DNA of 64,000 nucleotides from positions 1 to 64,000 of the forward strand of contig NZ_JAIWYX010000011.1 in assembly GCF_020251205.1 (NCBI RefSeq), given 5' to 3'. Source of the stretch: Arthrobacter sp. M4. GTDB taxonomy: Bacteria > Actinomycetota > Actinomycetes > Actinomycetales > Micrococcaceae. Shown here piece by piece: positions 33,488 through 55,254 of this stretch; position 1 is the stretch's first letter, and the number at the start of each line of letters is the position of its first letter. The notes under the pieces are model-generated. The model was not told where the DNA came from. It made no database searches and saw nothing but the letters and a program-made list of their open reading frames with translations. A program made the translations under genes and the position numbers.

Positions 33488-34723
33488 CTAGCGAACTCCG
33501 CCGCGCGGATTGCGGGCCAGGCTGGAGGCAGCATGGGCCAGCCATTCGAGCGGCCCACGCCAGCCAAGCACGCTGAACAGCATTCCAATTCCGATGGCCA
33601 GGAACGCATGGGCAAGGTACAGGCCCTCAGGCGTCCAACCGCTTGGCAGCGGCCGTTTGTACGTGGCTGCTACGGCCCACACATGCACCGAATACAGCGT
33701 CAATGTCATGGCTCCGGGGCCGCTGAACGGCAGCAGAAGCCTCAAGCCAAGCCAGTCACTCAAGCGTCCCACCAACAGGCATAAGCCGATCACCGCCGCG
33801 GCCACCCCCGAGGTGTGCAACAGGTCCAGGGTGGTGCCGGAGTGCGGTGCGCTGGTGGCCAGCCACCACCACGACCCCGTCTGGTCCACGCCTGCCAGGT
33901 TCACTTGGAGGAGGCTGTCCAGCGGGTACGAATGGCTGTCCCTCGTGGCCAGCAGGGCCTCCCGGCCGCCCCATTCGTCGATGGCCAGCACCCCCATGAC
34001 CTTGGCCGTGGCTGCCACAGCGGCCCCGCCTGTCACCAGCAGCAGCTGAACGCCCGCCGTCGTGAGCGCCAGCCGGCCTATGGCTAGGCCGATCAGTAGG
34101 TAGGAGAGCCACTGCAGTACGGGGTAGTAGCCGGTCACGAAGATGTCGGCCACCAAGGCAGCAGGCGTTTGGAAGTCTTCGATGGAGGGGTTGTGTCCCA
34201 ACTGCAGGGGCGGTAATGGGTCCAGGAACCAAGGCCGGATCAGGTAGCCCAGGACCGGGGACAACAGCACCCAGCCAGCCGCCCAGGCGCAGAGCACCGG
34301 CAACCGCAGCCCGATGAACGGCAGCACGCACAGGAATAACACCGCATAGTGGACCAGAATGACGGCGACGTTGACTTCCAGACCGCCCAGCAGGAGCCCG
34401 ACGGCGCCGATCACCGCGGCGCGTGCCGCGATGCCGCGTCGGTGCGCCCAAAGTTCAGGTCCCGACGGCGGTCGCGTCCTTCCCGTTGACAGTGCCAGGC
34501 CGACGCCGGCGAGGACAGCGAACAGGGCAGCAGATCGGCCGGAGAACGTAAGCCCTACCCACGTGGGTGTCAGGGTGCTGTCCGCGCTGAAGGTTGCCAT
34601 GAGATGCGTGGCCATCATTCCCAGCAGGGCCAGTCCGCGCGCGCCATCAATTCCTTGTAGCCGAGCCGGTGCCTGGCTGCTGCGCGTCCGCCCGCGCGCG
34701 GGTGCCGTTCCGGGGCCAGTCAT
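33488..34723 (-). CDS. Polytopic membrane protein, acyltransferase/DUF418-like
   Basis: A 411-residue protein with about ten hydrophobic segments. The N-terminal RLQGIDGARGLALLGMMATHL resembles the start of the heparan-alpha-glucosaminide acetyltransferase-like (DUF1624) and DUF418 families, in which a membrane-embedded enzyme transfers acyl groups to extracytoplasmic sugars or lipids. The C-terminal YSVHVWAVAATYKRPLPSGW region fits that architecture. Its target is unknown. It faces away from the SOS-regulated gene (about 90 nt between starts), so the LexA box at 34787 could also affect it. Confidence 0.78.
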   Translation of the reverse strand: MTGPGTAPARGRTRSSQAPARLQGIDGARGLALLGMMATHLMATFSADSTLTPTWVGLTFSGRSAALFAVLAGVGLALSTGRTRPPSGPELWAHRRGIAARAAVIGAVGLLLGGLEVNVAVILVHYAVLFLCVLPFIGLRLPVLCAWAAGWVLLSPVLGYLIRPWFLDPLPPLQLGHNPSIEDFQTPAALVADIFVTGYYPVLQWLSYLLIGLAIGRLALTTAGVQLLLVTGGAAVAATAKVMGVLAIDEWGGREALLATRDSHSYPLDSLLQVNLAGVDQTGSWWWLATSAPHSGTTLDLLHTSGVAAAVIGLCLLVGRLSDWLGLRLLLPFSGPGAMTLTLYSVHVWAVAATYKRPLPSGWTPEGLYLAHAFLAIGIGMLFSVLGWRGPLEWLAHAASSLARNPRGGVR

Positions 34724-34786
34724 GAGCCGATCGTCTCATATCTGGCTGTGGCAATCGGATGAACTCTCTGTCAGAGGAGCGTTGTG

Positions 34787-34804
34787 TTCGAATATATGTT
34801 CGAA
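34787..34804. promoter_or_regulatory. LexA (SOS) box before the DUF222-like gene
   Basis: TTCGAATATATGTTCGAA, 16 of 18 positions palindromic and one base off the actinobacterial TCGAAC-N4-GTTCGA consensus. It directly abuts the TACCAT -10 at 34805, so bound LexA would block RNA polymerase. The same core precedes recA and the LysM gene in this window. Confidence 0.85.
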
Positions 34805-34819
34805 TACCATGGCGTTATG
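34805..34819 (+). promoter_or_regulatory. Leaderless promoter core of the SOS-regulated gene
   Basis: TACCAT at 34805-34810, six nt, ATG at 34817. It begins right where the LexA box ends. Confidence 0.65.
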
Positions 34820-35197
34820 GACGATCAGTCGAGCCGCCTCCAACAGCCACTTCAGCGGCCAATCCGCCCCTCCGCCGGGCGATCTCCGTGTGAGCTGCCC
34901 CTCAAGGCACTGAGTCCCGGCGTGGTGGAATTCCTCTTCCGTCAACTGGTAACCGGCCGGCCTGCCGAAGACACGGAATGGCGTGACGAGGGGATCCTGA
35001 TGACCCAACAGGAGCCCGGAGCCGAGTTGGCGCGCCGCCTGGCAGAGAGTGATGTGGACGCCCTGACGCCTACGGAACTGTTCGAGTATGTCCGGGCTGC
35101 CCAGTCCCTCGTGGACTGGGCGGAGGGCCTGCGTCGTCGTGCTGTTAACAGCTACTGTGCCAACTCACAGACCAATCCCGGCGCCGCGGCGTTTTGA
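34817..35197 (+). CDS. SOS-regulated small protein, DUF222 N-terminus-like
   Basis: A 126-residue protein. The C-terminal half (LTPTELFEYVRAAQSLVDWAE and the following basic helix) resembles the start of DUF222/13E12-repeat proteins, which normally continue for several hundred residues into an HNH nuclease. Here the protein stops soon after that helix, so no nuclease domain is present. The N-terminal 60 residues are not recognised. The ATG at 34817 is set by the TACCAT promoter; ATG 34784 upstream would read through the LexA box. Function unknown; DNA-damage induction is inferred from the box. Confidence 0.7.
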   Translation: MDDQSSRLQQPLQRPIRPSAGRSPCELPLKALSPGVVEFLFRQLVTGRPAEDTEWRDEGILMTQQEPGAELARRLAESDVDALTPTELFEYVRAAQSLVDWAEGLRRRAVNSYCANSQTNPGAAAF

Positions 35198-35242: not shown

Positions 35243-35258
35243 TAACGTTTTTCGTATG
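35243..35258 (+). promoter_or_regulatory. Leaderless promoter core of dapA
   Basis: TAACGT at 35243-35248, seven nt, ATG at 35256. Confidence 0.6.
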
Positions 35259-36167
35259 GCTGAAACTCCCGCGAACATTCCTGCATTCGGTACCCTCCTG
35301 ACCGCGATGGTCACGCCCTTCTCGAAGGATGGCAAGGTCGATTACCAGCAGGCCGCGGAACTGGCCACCAAGCTCGTTGACGATGGTTGCGACGGCCTGG
35401 TCGTTACCGGCACTACCGGCGAGACGTCCACGCTGACCGATGATGAAAACCTGGGCATGTTCCGTGCCGTCAAGGAGGCCGTTGGCGGCCGCGCAAAAAT
35501 CATTGCGGGAACCGGCACCAACGACACCGCCCACTCAGTCCACCTTTCCCAGCGTGCGGCCGAAATCGGCGTCGACGGTTTGCTCATCGTCACGCCTTAC
35601 TACAACAAGCCCAGCCAGGCCGGCGTCCGCGCCCACTTCGAGACCATCGCGTCTGCCACTGACGTCCCCGTTATGCTCTATGACATCCCGGGACGCTCCT
35701 CGATCCAGATCGCCCCGGACACCATGATCCGGCTGGCGGAGCACCCCAACATCATCGCGGTCAAGGACGCCAAAGCCGACTTCGCCGCAGCCACCCGCGT
35801 TATGGCGTCCACTGACCTCCTTTTCTACTCGGGCGACGACGGCCTGACCCTCGAGTGGATGGCACTTGGCGCAGTTGGCCTCGTGGGCGTCACCACGCAT
35901 GTGGCCACCCGCCAGTTCCGCGACCTTATCGACGCTGTCAACGGGAACGACTTCGCGACGGCCCGCAGGATCAACTTCGCGCTGGAACCCGTGGTGCGCG
36001 CCACCATGACGCGCGTCCAGGGCGCCGTGGCCGCCAAGCAGATTCTTAAGTGGCAGGGAGTCCTGCCCAACTCGGTTGTCCGTTTGCCCCTCGTGGAGCC
36101 GGACGACGCTGAGATCGCAATCATCCGCGAGGATTTGGCGGAGGCCGGAATGGACTTGACCGTCTAA
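35256..36167 (+). CDS. dapA: 4-hydroxy-tetrahydrodipicolinate synthase
   Basis: Class I aldolase condensing pyruvate with aspartate semialdehyde, the committed step toward diaminopimelate and lysine. The 303-residue TIM barrel has GTTGETSTL near residue 50, the catalytic Tyr in MLYDIPGRSS and the Schiff-base Lys in IIAVKDAKADF (about residue 171). It has its own leaderless promoter. RNase J follows 28 nt later with its own ribosome site, probably on the same mRNA (dapA-rnj is a common actinobacterial order). Confidence 0.96.
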   Translation: MAETPANIPAFGTLLTAMVTPFSKDGKVDYQQAAELATKLVDDGCDGLVVTGTTGETSTLTDDENLGMFRAVKEAVGGRAKIIAGTGTNDTAHSVHLSQRAAEIGVDGLLIVTPYYNKPSQAGVRAHFETIASATDVPVMLYDIPGRSSIQIAPDTMIRLAEHPNIIAVKDAKADFAAATRVMASTDLLFYSGDDGLTLEWMALGAVGLVGVTTHVATRQFRDLIDAVNGNDFATARRINFALEPVVRATMTRVQGAVAAKQILKWQGVLPNSVVRLPLVEPDDAEIAIIREDLAEAGMDLTV

Positions 36168-43755: not shown

Positions 43756-44802
43756 ATGGCGGTAAACCCCGATCGTCAGAAAGCGCTCGACGCAGCGCTT
43801 GCCCAGATCGACAAGCAATTTGGCAAGGGCTCCATCATGCGTCTCGGTGACGATACGCGGGCGCCTATCGAGGTTATTCCCACTGGCTCAATCGCCTTGG
43901 ATGTCGCACTGGGCATTGGCGGCCTGCCGCGTGGCCGAGTCGTGGAAATCTACGGACCTGAATCGTCCGGTAAAACTACGGTTGCCCTGCACGCGGTGGC
44001 CAATGCCCAGCGAAACGGCGGGATCGCGGCATTCATCGACGCCGAACACGCCTTGGACCCGGACTACGCCGCCAAACTGGGCGTGGACACCGACGCACTG
44101 CTGGTTTCCCAGCCGGACACCGGTGAACAGGCCCTCGAAATCATGGACATGTTGGTGGGCTCCGGCTCCCTGGACATCATCGTCATCGACTCGGTGGCTG
44201 CCCTTGTGCCGCGTGCCGAAATCGAGGGCGAAATGGGCGACTCGCACGTCGGTCTGCAGGCACGACTCATGAGCCAGGCACTCCGCAAGATCACCGGCCG
44301 CCTCAGCCAGACCAAGACCACCGCAATCTTCATCAACCAGCTCCGTGAAAAGATCGGTGTGTTCTTCGGCTCTCCGGAAACCACTACTGGTGGTAAGGCG
44401 CTGAAGTTCTACGCATCCGTCCGCATCGACGTCCGCCGGATTCAGACATTGAAGGAAGGTGCCGATTCCGTCGGCAACCGGACCAAGGCCAAGATCGTCA
44501 AGAACAAGATGGCCCCGCCCTTCAAGACGGCCGAATTCGACATCATCTATGGCCAGGGAATATCCCGTGAGGGCGGCATTATCGACATGGGCGTCGAACA
44601 CGGCATCATCAAGAAGTCGGGCTCGTGGTTCACCTATGACGGCGATCAACTGGGTCAGGGCATGGAAAACTCTCGCCGCTTCCTTCGGGACAACCCTGAG
44701 CTCGCGGCCGAACTCGAGCGGCTGATCAAGGAGAAGCTCGGTGTTGGCGTAAAGCCGGAAGACGGTGACGGAACCCCTAAGCTGAAGGCCGTTGACGGCT
44801 AG
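43756..44802 (+). CDS. recA: Recombinase RecA
   Basis: DNA strand-exchange ATPase and co-protease for LexA self-cleavage. The 348-residue protein has Walker [10 protein letters not shown] near residue 70, the DNA-binding loops ([19 protein letters not shown] and [16 protein letters not shown]), and a C-terminal domain ending in an acidic tail. No intein is present. It has a LexA box 190 nt upstream. recX follows after about 43 nt. Confidence 0.98.
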
Positions 44803-51658: not shown

Positions 51659-53729
51659 ATCGCAAACCATGGCCACCCAGGAAAGCGGGCCTGCCAGCGA
51701 GCCTGATCCTGAGGAGTTTGCCCTCGATCTCCTGGACAAGGCGGTAGAGGGCATGGGTGGCCAAAGCCGAACAGGCCAGCACGAGATGACCAGGCAGGTG
51801 GTTCGCGCTATCGAAAGCGGGAACCACCTGCTGGTTCAGGCTGGAACGGGAACGGGGAAATCGCTCGCGTACCTGATTCCGCTCATTGCCCACTCCCTCA
51901 ACAGCAACAAGCCGGCGCTGGTTTCCACGGCCACCCTGGCACTGCAGACGCAGATTGTTGGCCGTGACCTGCCCCGGCTGCTGAAAACGATCAATCCATC
52001 GCTCGACAGGCCGATTGACGTTGCCCTGGTCAAAGGCCGGGCGAACTACGTTTGCCTGCACAAGCTCGACGGCGGGTTCCCCAGTGAGGAGCCCTCCGAG
52101 GGCCAGCTCTTCTCACTGGGTGAGGACACTAGTGTTCCCCATCTGGCTGCTGCCATGGGCGGACCGTCGTCCCAGCTCGGCAAGGAGGTCCTGCGGCTAC
52201 GGGAATGGGCCAAGACCAGTCCAACGGGGGACCGGGACGAGCTAATGCCCGGCGTGACGGACCGCGCCTGGCGGCAGGTATCCGTCACTGCGATGGAATG
52301 CCTGGGTGCGCAGAAATGTCCTGTGGCGGAGGAGTGTTTCAGTGAACGCGCCCGCCAGCACGCTGCCGAGGCAGACGTTGTAGTCACCAACCACGCCATG
52401 CTGGCAGTCAGCGCTTTTGAGGGCCTGGCCGTGCTTCCGGAGTACGACGTGGTTGTGGTGGACGAGGCGCACGAACTGCAGGACCGTGTAACCGGCGCGG
52501 TCTCCGGCCAGCTGTCCGTCGCCATGGTCCACGCTGCGGCGTCCAGCATGCGCAAACGTACTGCGATCACAGTTGACGCGCTCAACGCGGCGGCCGCCGC
52601 CCTTGAACTGGCTTTGACGGCTGTTCCCTCGGGCCTTCAACCGAACGGCCTCAATGAAGAACAGCTTGACGCCGTCGACCAGCTCCGTGAAGCCTGCCGG
52701 GCCGCGCTGTCCGATTCGAAGGGTGATTCCTCCAACGCGGCCGACGGCGGGCGGCAGCTTGCGCGGTCACGCACCATGTTGATCTTGGAACTCTGCGAAC
52801 GGCTGCTGGCCGCCCGGGAGAACCGGGAGGTGGTGTGGTTTTCCCGCACTGGTTCCTTTGACCCCCAGCAGGGGTACAGCCAGCCGGATGACGCAGCTCC
52901 CGCCCTGGTTAATATCGCTCCGCTCAGCGTGGCCGGAAAGCTCCGGGATGGCCTGTTCGACGGTCATACGGTCATCCTGACGTCGGCAACGCTGGCTATC
53001 GGATCGGCGTTCGAACCGGCGGCCGGGGGCCTTGGGCTGCTGGGCGACGGTGCGCCCAGCTGGACCGGCGTCGACGTCGGCTCGCCCTTCGACTACCCGA
53101 AACAGGGTATGTTGTACGTGGCCCGCCACCTGCCGAAACCGGGCCGTGGCACTTCCCCGGAAGCCCTGGATGAACTGTACGGACTCATCAAGTCCTCAGC
53201 AGGTGGGGCACTGTGCCTGTTCTCTTCGCGCCGCGCTGCCGAGGAAGCCGCCGAGGCCATGCGGGAACGACTCGAAGTGACTATTCTGTGCCAGGGCGAA
53301 TCCACCATGGCGGCCCTGGTGAAGCAGTTCGCTGATGAACCGGACACCTGCTTGTTCGGGACGATGTCGCTGTGGCAAGGCGTCGATGTTCCCGGTGGTT
53401 CTTGCCGTTTGGTTGTCATCGACCGAATCCCGTTCCCACGTCCCGACGACCCCCTGATGACCGCACGCTCCCGCGCCGTTGCGCAGGCCGGCGGCAACGG
53501 ATTTATGTCGGTGTCAGCCACCCATGCGGCGATTCGCCTGGCACAGGGGGCGGGAAGGCTCATCAGGTCCACCGGAGACAAGGGTGTAGTCGCGGTGCTG
53601 GATTCACGCCTGGCAACGGAACGCTACAGCTCGTTCCTTCGGGCGGCCCTGCCGCCATTCTGGACCACCGAGGACGGCAAGGTAGTGCGGTCCGCGCTGC
53701 AACGCCTCGCCGCCGGGCATCGTAGCTAG
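51651..53729 (+). CDS. DinG/XPD-like ATP-dependent DNA helicase
   Basis: A 692-residue superfamily 2 helicase. Walker A is [12 protein letters not shown] near residue 65, the DEAH box VVVDEAHEL near residue 275. Four cysteines between them (NYVC, MEC, QKC, EEC) fit the XPD/DinG 4Fe-4S cluster. The C-terminal motor domain has [11 protein letters not shown] and QGAGRLIRS. DinG homologues unwind damaged or R-loop DNA. It is coupled to hflX and convergent with lexA; the two stop codons overlap at a CTAG. Confidence 0.92.
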
Positions 53730-54475
53730 AGCGAGCGCAGGACGGAAACTACCTTGCCCATGATCACGGCATGGTCGCCAAGTATCGGCTCGTACTGCGT
53801 GTTTTGGGGGAGCAGCCATGTGTGGCCGTCGCGTTGGCGGAACGTCTTGACTGTAGCCTCGTCGTCGAGGAGCGCAGCCACGATGTCGCCGTTGACGGCG
53901 TCGTTCTGGCGTCGTACAACCACCCAGTCGCCGTCGCAGATGGCGGCGTCGATCATGGAATCACCCGCCACCTTGAGCATAAAGAGTTCGCCATGCCCCA
54001 CGAGCTGGCGCGGCAGCGGAAGAACGTCTTCAACCGATTGATCGGCGAGGATTGGCCCACCGGCTGCGATGCGGCCCACGAGGGGCACCATGGCGGTGTC
54101 GCTGGCACTGGCCAACTCTGTTACCGAGAGTCCGCCCGTGCTGCGGAGTGCTGCGGGTGCTTCAAGGCCTGGAATATTTAGTTCCCCCTCGTCCAACGTG
54201 AGGGGCATGAGCACTTCCATGGCGCGCGGACGCTTGGGATCGCGGCGGAGGTAACCCAGCTTTTCCAACTGCGACAACTGATGGGTGACGCTGGACAGGC
54301 TGGCCAAGCCCACCACGTCACCGATTTCACGCATGGATGGCGGATAGCCGTTCTCGTTGACCGACCTTTGGATTGTTTCCAGGATCTTCTTTTGGCGCAG
54401 GGTCAGGCTCTTGGGGGCCTTTTGCGACGACTGCGCCCGCTGGGTTGGCCTGCCTCCGGTCGCCTTCGCTGCCAT
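53726..54475 (-). CDS. lexA: LexA repressor
   Basis: SOS repressor that autocleaves when RecA filaments form. The 249-residue protein has the winged HTH ([21 protein letters not shown], split around residue 55), the cleavage site Ala-Gly in [10 protein letters not shown], the catalytic Ser in [11 protein letters not shown] and the Lys in [12 protein letters not shown] 54475 is taken as start; GTG 54499 is an alternative with eight more residues. Its promoter carries a LexA-like box, so it is autoregulated. Confidence 0.96.
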
Positions 54476-54616
54476 GTGATCCAACGCCCTTTCTTTCACC
54501 GCGGCACCAGCCGGCGGCGCCCGGGCCTGAAAATGTCAGACCCTCCTGATGCACTGTCTCCATGCTTGCTTCGGTCTTGATTCAGATGCCTGTTTTCAGT
54601 GCTTGTTCTTCACTCC

Positions 54617-54657: not shown

Positions 54658-54706
54658 GCGAGTCTCGACACCGTTCGGTGATAGGTGCTAAAAATGGAAC
54701 TGCTCG

Positions 54707-54724
54707 TTCGAATATCTGTTCGAA
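54707..54724. promoter_or_regulatory. LexA (SOS) box before the LysM gene
   Basis: TTCGAATATCTGTTCGAA, 16 of 18 palindromic. It lies 117 nt before the LysM start and about 230 nt from lexA. Confidence 0.87.
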
Positions 54725-54840
54725 AACTGTTTGGTATGGATGCTGCTCTTGGGGATTCCTTCGAACATGCGTCCACTTCGGGACCGCACATCAGCTTGAG
54801 GACAGCGCCTGTAGGAGCGCTAGTAGGAAAGGTTCAGCAC

Positions 54841-55254
54841 ATGGCGACAACAATTTCCGCCTTCGCAACCGGACACAGCGGTGGGCTGCGCCAACATGGG
54901 ATGCGGCACTGCACCGTGTCGGGAAGTCGAGCCAGCCAGCCGCCCCTCAAATTGACGCGGCGTGGGCGCGTGGTCTTCTTCGGTGTTCCTGTGATCCTCT
55001 TGGCTGCCGTGCTGCTGGGTATGGCGGGCTTCCTGAATTCTCCTGCCAAGGCTGCTGACATCGCTTCCGAGCTGCATCAGTCGCCTACCGTGAGCGTTAC
55101 AGTGCAGGCCGGGGACACTCTGTGGTCCATCGCGGCTGAGGCCGTCCCGCACCGGGACGTTAGGGATGTAGTGGCGGACATTGCGGCCCTGAACAACCTC
55201 GACGGCGGCCGCGTCCTTCCCGGTCAGCAGCTCTTTGTGCCCAGGGAGAAATAG
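54841..55254 (+). CDS. SOS-induced LysM membrane protein (YneA/DivS-like position)
   Basis: A 137-residue protein: a basic N-terminus, one membrane helix (about residues 46-66, VVFFGVPVILLAAVLLGMAG) and a C-terminal LysM domain (VQAGDTLWSIAAEAV through LPGQQLFVPREK). Single-pass LysM proteins divergent from lexA are SOS-induced cell-division inhibitors in other Gram-positives (YneA, DivS, Rv2719c). The role here is inferred from position, topology and the LexA box. ATG 54841 has AGGAAAGG at the right distance; the ORF upstream to 54685 runs over the LexA box. Confidence 0.85.
   Translation: MATTISAFATGHSGGLRQHGMRHCTVSGSRASQPPLKLTRRGRVVFFGVPVILLAAVLLGMAGFLNSPAKAADIASELHQSPTVSVTVQAGDTLWSIAAEAVPHRDVRDVVADIAALNNLDGGRVLPGQQLFVPREK

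Follow-up and report, generated by a model that had tools for sequence, protein, structure and literature searches.

Within the window, by which we mean the whole 64,000-nucleotide stretch of DNA that was analysed, a small open reading frame, here termed the mini gene, lies behind a LexA (SOS) box. The features of the locus, together with the lexA gene of the same stretch, are as follows.

33488-34723, minus strand: divergent acyltransferase-like membrane protein gene (Pfam HGSNAT_cat), upstream of the mini gene
34782-34787, plus strand: -35-like element TTGTGT, read from the sequence
34787-34804, plus strand: LexA (SOS) box TTCGAATATATGTTCGAA, filling the promoter spacer
34805-34810, plus strand: -10-like element TACCAT, read from the sequence
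34817-35197, plus strand: leaderless mini ORF of 126 codons, with ATG at 34817 and a TGA ending at 35197
34904-34957, plus strand: conserved helix KALSPGVVEFLFRQLVTG, residues 30-47, from the genus alignments (helix 34-46 in the AlphaFold2 model)
34991-35149, plus strand: stretch homologous to the helical hairpin at the N terminus of DUF222-HNH (13E12) proteins, residues 59-111, from profile comparisons
35256-36167, plus strand: downstream neighbour of the mini gene, presumably dapA, named from its sequence
53726-54499, minus strand: lexA, with Pfam LexA domains and an adjacent box with one or two mismatches

The sequence-only reading of this DNA had described a LexA box touching the -10 of a leaderless promoter ahead of a 126-residue ORF, and direct inspection of the sequence confirmed this arrangement. 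The box occupies the 17-nt spacer between the -35-like and -10-like elements. According to excerpts of PMC4181829, the actinobacterial SOS-box consensus is TCGAAC-N4-GTTCGA, with which the box of the mini gene agrees at 11 of 12 positions (here TCGAAT...GTTCGA). Because the ATG lies only 6 nt 3' of the -10-like element, the mini transcript would be leaderless. An in-frame GTG at 34784, which would give a protein of 137 aa, was also considered as the start and was rejected, as the loci of the genus do not share a reading frame across the box. In 78 genus loci, the ATG stands 13 nt (52 loci) or 14 nt (26 loci) 3' of the box, so that there is no common frame through the box and the ATG is the likely start.

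Perfect copies of TTCGAAYATATGTTCGA occur twice genome-wide, in the mini promoter and at C2:69782, and the reversed control pattern had no occurrence in the whole genome at up to two mismatches. The second exact box lies outside the window and precedes what we take to be an Rv2578c-like ORF. Boxes with one or two mismatches also precede the ORF at 43756-44802, presumably recA, and two ORFs that we assume to be dnaE2 and ruvA. A LexA box separates lexA from a divergently oriented LysM-domain ORF (54685-55254), which occupies a place that we take to be that of the ChiZ/DivS-type division inhibitors in other actinobacteria. Elsewhere in this genome, on contig C22 near 144600, a 111-aa ORF with no Pfam match lies behind a one-mismatch LexA box (L107, 1528-1863).

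When 99 genomes were searched at the protein level, the mini gene was present in every one of the 60 further genus genomes and in none of the 38 genomes from other families of the order. When 295 genomes of the family were searched, mini matches were obtained in 24 genus genomes, 17 of them beyond the first search, as well as in one g47 genome and nine g36 genomes; two of the nine g36 matches (L098 and L100) were not reproduced by local tblastn. The one g34 match of this search was a full-length DUF222 protein and not a mini protein. There is one match per genus genome, and among the 80 of 119 loci listed the hosts are Arthrobacter, Pseudarthrobacter, Paenarthrobacter and one Micrococcaceae bin. 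The mini gene was thereby seen in three genera of the family, and most family genera show none. No mini gene was found in phage records, and one was found in plasmid records, on a 1.35-Mb Arthrobacter record.

The promoter is retained together with the gene. Across the 78 genus loci, the 16-bp core of the box is identical at 16/16 bases in 73 and at 15/16 in five, the -35 position reads TTG in 77 and TGG in one, and the -10 position reads TANNNT in all 78. This count includes L093, whose box lies farther upstream than the first range and was reached with a wider one. The earlier proposal of LexA-type control gained support from these loci, since box, promoter and ORF are kept in 78/78 of them and in two more genera. 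The protein has been maintained as well. Residues W55, E70, L71, R73, R74, L75, L83, E87, L88 and W101 show no variation across 67 aligned members, a set drawn from an alignment of 84 proteins without L093, L095 and L101, and the median core dN/dS is 0.087 over 129 usable of 2850 pairs. One could imagine that a functional box stands ahead of a gene in decay or of a spurious ORF, in keeping with L095, the single genus locus of the 78 with its ATG out of frame relative to the match, and with the lack of a convincing model in Pfam, NCBIfam and PHROGs. Against this stand the dN/dS of about 0.09 and the promoter, which is nearly identical at 78/78 loci; we consider the account hardly credible. As judged from its sequence, the mini gene is a real gene under purifying selection and a core SOS-type gene of Arthrobacter-type bacteria.

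The gene downstream is equally constant in position: dapA lies 3' of the mini gene on the same strand in 76/76 genus loci whose stretch covers it (of 78), and the gap measures 59-235 bp in 45 loci, 59 bp being the value here. It could be supposed from this closeness that the box mainly serves dapA or a hydrolase gene and that the ORF is a leader. However, the gap exceeds 800 bp in 31 of the 78 loci, a -10-like element (TAACGT) lies ahead of dapA, and the mini protein itself is conserved, which makes such a leader very improbable. In the one gap that was scanned, that of L030 (1819-2574), we found a carbon-nitrogen hydrolase gene; thyX, the candidate for the place between the mini gene and dapA, proved wrong there. 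Box and mini gene are both present at five of 30 dapA loci of the family (in g1, g36 and g47), and neither was found at the other 25, one g36 genome being among them. No ancestral full-length gene was recognised upstream of dapA at 30 dapA loci (61 genomes searched), which were scanned with the mini profile and the box.

The mini protein of the window matched none of the Pfam families, and NCBIfam, PHROGs and PADLOC held no useful model for it. The DUF222 model PF02720 was matched by 0/67 members at E up to 10, under HMMER filters that drop most weak matches. Scattered matches to family libraries among the 67 members involved one or two members each, at E 0.0019 or worse, and were mutually inconsistent. 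Profile-profile comparison was more sensitive to the likeness that the sequence-only reading had noted between the C-terminal half and the start of DUF222 proteins: this likeness failed with the Pfam model and held with hhalign, which aligned mini columns 52-108 with columns 26-89 of 492 of a DUF222 profile at a score of 43.2 (E 6.8e-6, probability 84.6). For comparison, the reversed profile scored 15.3, and the highest score among 100 column shuffles was 20.1. The target profile consisted of 37 DUF222 proteins collected by the Pfam model alone, seven from this genome and 30 from the family. The absence of the HNH nuclease part was likewise upheld, as no HNH domain was matched in the mini protein and the ORF finishes at residue 126.

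Further matches came from longer proteins. Among 76 sequences, the mini profile detected the full-length DUF222 protein L101 of another genus at 1e-12, a selected case whose locus was found through the mini gene itself. Scanning the order with the mini profile yielded eight long ORFs (L155-L162) and additionally L163, which covers profile positions 32-71 only. Seven of the eight long ORFs (L155-L160 and L162) have PF02720 above the cut-off, three of these with an HNH domain, and L161 matches the mini module and no Pfam family at 0.001. The best full-length matches to the mini profile occur in other genera; the DUF222 proteins of this genome match it weakly, the best three at 8.7-9.7 bits.

The AlphaFold2 model of the mini protein contains helices at residues 34-46, 67-77 and 85-119, with block means of pLDDT of 90-98 over residues 71-120 and values of 72.6 (pLDDT) and 0.45 (pTM) for the whole. 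A matching helix pair (170-178 and 187-217) was found in the model of L101 (pLDDT 73.3, pTM 0.63), where the DUF222 core and then the HNH part come after it. The DUF222 helical core is missing from the mini protein, whose model stops with the long helix 85-119, whereas many helices follow in L101. Taken together, the profile comparison and the agreeing helix pairs identify residues of about 59-111 as the front module of DUF222-HNH proteins; these comparisons support a homology to the N-terminal leader of the DUF222-HNH (13E12) proteins that is real but remote. None of the four family libraries searched has a model for the mini protein, which by the same comparisons is a nuclease-free variant of the DUF222-HNH family. 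Helix 34-46 is outside the stretch matching DUF222 proteins, and the conserved helix of residues 30-47 is absent from the g47 homologue L065, in which the DUF222-type hairpin stays.

Solved structures compared by sequence with the mini protein gave a best E of 0.2, and its fold searches (PDB, viral and VIA-align, the last with a best Z of 5.7) returned nothing beyond common helix arrangements and no function. Residues 201-329 of L101 (model m34d7ee765896), the predicted DUF222 core, were observed to resemble the DNA-binding domain of ParB/Noc/Spo0J proteins (Z 7.9, rmsd 2.4, 100 residues), with chains of this type taking the top five ranks. This region starts within the long helix shared with the mini protein. 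If the likeness is right, the mini protein would contain the helix leading into a DNA-binding domain, the domain itself being absent; we regard this as a lead only, because such a Z in helical models may reflect a common arrangement.

LexA control has been described for part of the 13E12 family. Excerpts of PMC5005354 name Rv0515, Rv1702c, Rv3074 and Rv3776 of M. tuberculosis as 13E12 genes belonging to the LexA regulon, and those of PMC4181829 count 13E12 HNH genes among the LexA targets, bearing out the statement in the earlier reading that some mycobacterial 13E12 genes are LexA-regulated. The sections consulted of PMC6443821 give Rv0515, Rv1702c and Rv3074 as LexA-controlled, with the family not named there. 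Judged by title and abstract start, none of the open-access papers listed deals with the mini gene or with DUF222 genes under LexA control in organisms other than mycobacteria.

We scored full-length DUF222 genes for TCGAAC-N4-GTTCGA between positions -120 and +400 relative to the open frame, requiring at least 11/12 positions and taking the expectation from dinucleotide shuffles; at each locus we scored the ORF with a match to the mini profile or the DUF222 profile. For the other genera of the family, which include g36, some of whose genomes carry the mini gene, a LexA box was found on 8/30 genes (0.0 expected), these eight coming from six genera, two of which gave two each. The box of L135, one of the eight, lies inside the open frame, as does that of L137. 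The order gave 2/8 (0.03 expected) and the class 5/17 (0.0 expected), or 3/17 with a shorter range of -120 to +180; the class genomes may include mycobacteria. In the genus of the mini gene, none of the 39 full-length genes scored (of 41) had such a box (0.05 expected), nor did any of the seven scored (of eight) in this genome (0.0 expected). L195 and L230 of the genus, with a cut 5' end, and L004 of this genome, at a contig end, were excluded from the scoring. At a threshold of 10/12, the genus gave 3/39 against 0.78 expected. Since the genus sample was the top of a hit list and not random, box-bearing full-length genes may exist there unseen.

The layout of the mini promoter, defined as a box of at least 9/12 followed by an in-frame ATG 12-13 nt later, recurs on 6/30 full-length genes of the family, from four genera, with a background of 0 in 39228 positions inside ORFs. 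It was found on 0/8 full-length genes of the order, 0/17 of the class, 0/39 of the genus and 0/7 of this genome. These counts suggest that LexA control of DUF222 genes extends well outside mycobacteria. Full-length DUF222 genes with boxes of 10/12 to 12/12 near their starts include L101, L119, L120, L131, L137, L142 and L144, and further box-bearing ones (10/12 to 12/12) are L145, L161, L346, L351, L352 and L360. In several genes the box lies over the likely start, and the protein would begin MFE or MFD (L161, L346); such an N-terminus, where the box covers the start codon, may be a possible sign of SOS control. Short frames of the class (L345, L347, L354, L358, L359 and L360) were considered as mini genes and rejected, as they reach the end of their stretch and look like cut full-length genes. 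In this genome, the three DUF222 genes L006, L007 and L008 closely resemble one another and contain variable stretches rich in repeats, which suggests recent copying of the DUF222 family.

Building on what the genomes themselves display, namely the gene, its promoter and box, their conservation, the purifying selection, the homology of the module and the shared layout, we propose that the mini gene encodes a LexA-repressed DUF222-HNH front module joined to a lineage-specific helix, which would restrain or redirect the full-length DUF222-HNH proteins of the same cell. We hold this proposal tentatively, with somewhat less than even confidence. LexA would repress the mini gene, and RecA-driven cleavage of LexA would release its expression. 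The gene may derive from an SOS-controlled DUF222-HNH gene that kept its promoter and front module, a descent that fits the shared promoter layout and the module; the mini gene has the look of a DUF222 gene under SOS control that was cut down to these two parts. No intermediate between a full-length DUF222-HNH gene and the mini gene was found. The product would work by protein-protein contact through the hairpin, perhaps as a damage-induced binding module that is a partner or a competitor of full-length DUF222-HNH proteins. The likeliest partners would be the cell's own full-length DUF222-HNH proteins, the weakest step of the proposal, made plausible by the presence of DUF222 in 121/121 genus genomes searched and by the finding that none of the 39 scored genus genes carries an SOS box. 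DNA damage would then raise the nuclease-free form relative to the nuclease-bearing forms, restraining or redirecting the latter. We think it rather unlikely that the mini protein is a dedicated damage-induced antagonist of the multicopy DUF222-HNH proteins and that SOS control has moved in Arthrobacter from the nucleases to the decoy.

Three observations count against restraint of the cell's own DUF222-HNH proteins. The paralogues in the genome match the mini profile weakly (at most 9.7 bits). DUF222 is common in genera without the mini gene (it is present in 117/149 family genomes), so that the DUF222 proteins there do not need it. Finally, genome G134 has both the mini gene and a full-length DUF222 gene whose box scores 10/12. 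It is almost as probable that the partner does not belong to the DUF222 family. In that case, the mini protein would be an SOS effector whose re-used hairpin, by means of the genus-specific SPGVV-FLFRQLV helix, binds another target, such as a replication, repair or cell-cycle protein, a proposal to which we give a similarly tentative standing. The strong conservation in the genus of an N-terminal helix outside the DUF222-matching stretch agrees with this, as do the weak resemblance of same-genome paralogues to the module and the one match per genus genome, as expected of an SOS housekeeping function. It fits less well that the g47 homologue has dispensed with the helix yet retained the DUF222-type hairpin, and that the ChiZ/DivS place is already taken, if the analogy holds, by the LysM protein divergent from lexA. 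A DUF222 partner could also be helped rather than hindered, the mini protein activating or loading DUF222-HNH proteins after damage. Homology and co-occurrence suit an activator as well as an inhibitor, and the present data separate neither sign; we consider such a helper improbable.

A strictly conserved SOS-controlled stand-alone front module would show which part of a DUF222-HNH protein can work alone. We know of no established function for 13E12/DUF222-HNH genes, and a small single-copy gene of this kind in harmless soil bacteria could offer a handle on their role in the damage response. The mini gene, small, unannotated and placed behind a very well conserved damage switch, is a candidate for a component newly added to the known bacterial response to DNA damage.

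Among known systems, truncated dominant-negative or antagonist paralogues keep an interaction module and lose the catalytic part. The mini protein resembles them in that the interaction module is retained and the catalytic part is gone, a likeness in which the antagonism itself is only proposed. DinI, SulA, SidA, DivS and ChiZ are SOS-induced small modulators behind tight LexA promoters, and the mini gene is similar to these in its small protein and tight LexA promoter. It differs from the ChiZ/DivS-type inhibitors, as the mini protein has neither a LysM domain (by Pfam) nor a membrane segment (by eye, a hydrophobic stretch of membrane-helix length). The closest relatives are the DUF222-HNH/13E12 proteins (PF02720 plus HNH), which share with the mini protein the homologous N-terminal helical leader and, in part of the family, a LexA box near the start, with the leaderless layout on 6/30 genes of related genera. 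From these the mini protein is set apart by the missing DUF222 core and HNH domain and by having no Pfam match, as well as by its size, about 110-200 aa in the genus compared with open frames of about 450-850 aa for DUF222-HNH, and the mini gene stands as a single copy per genome in a fixed place near dapA.
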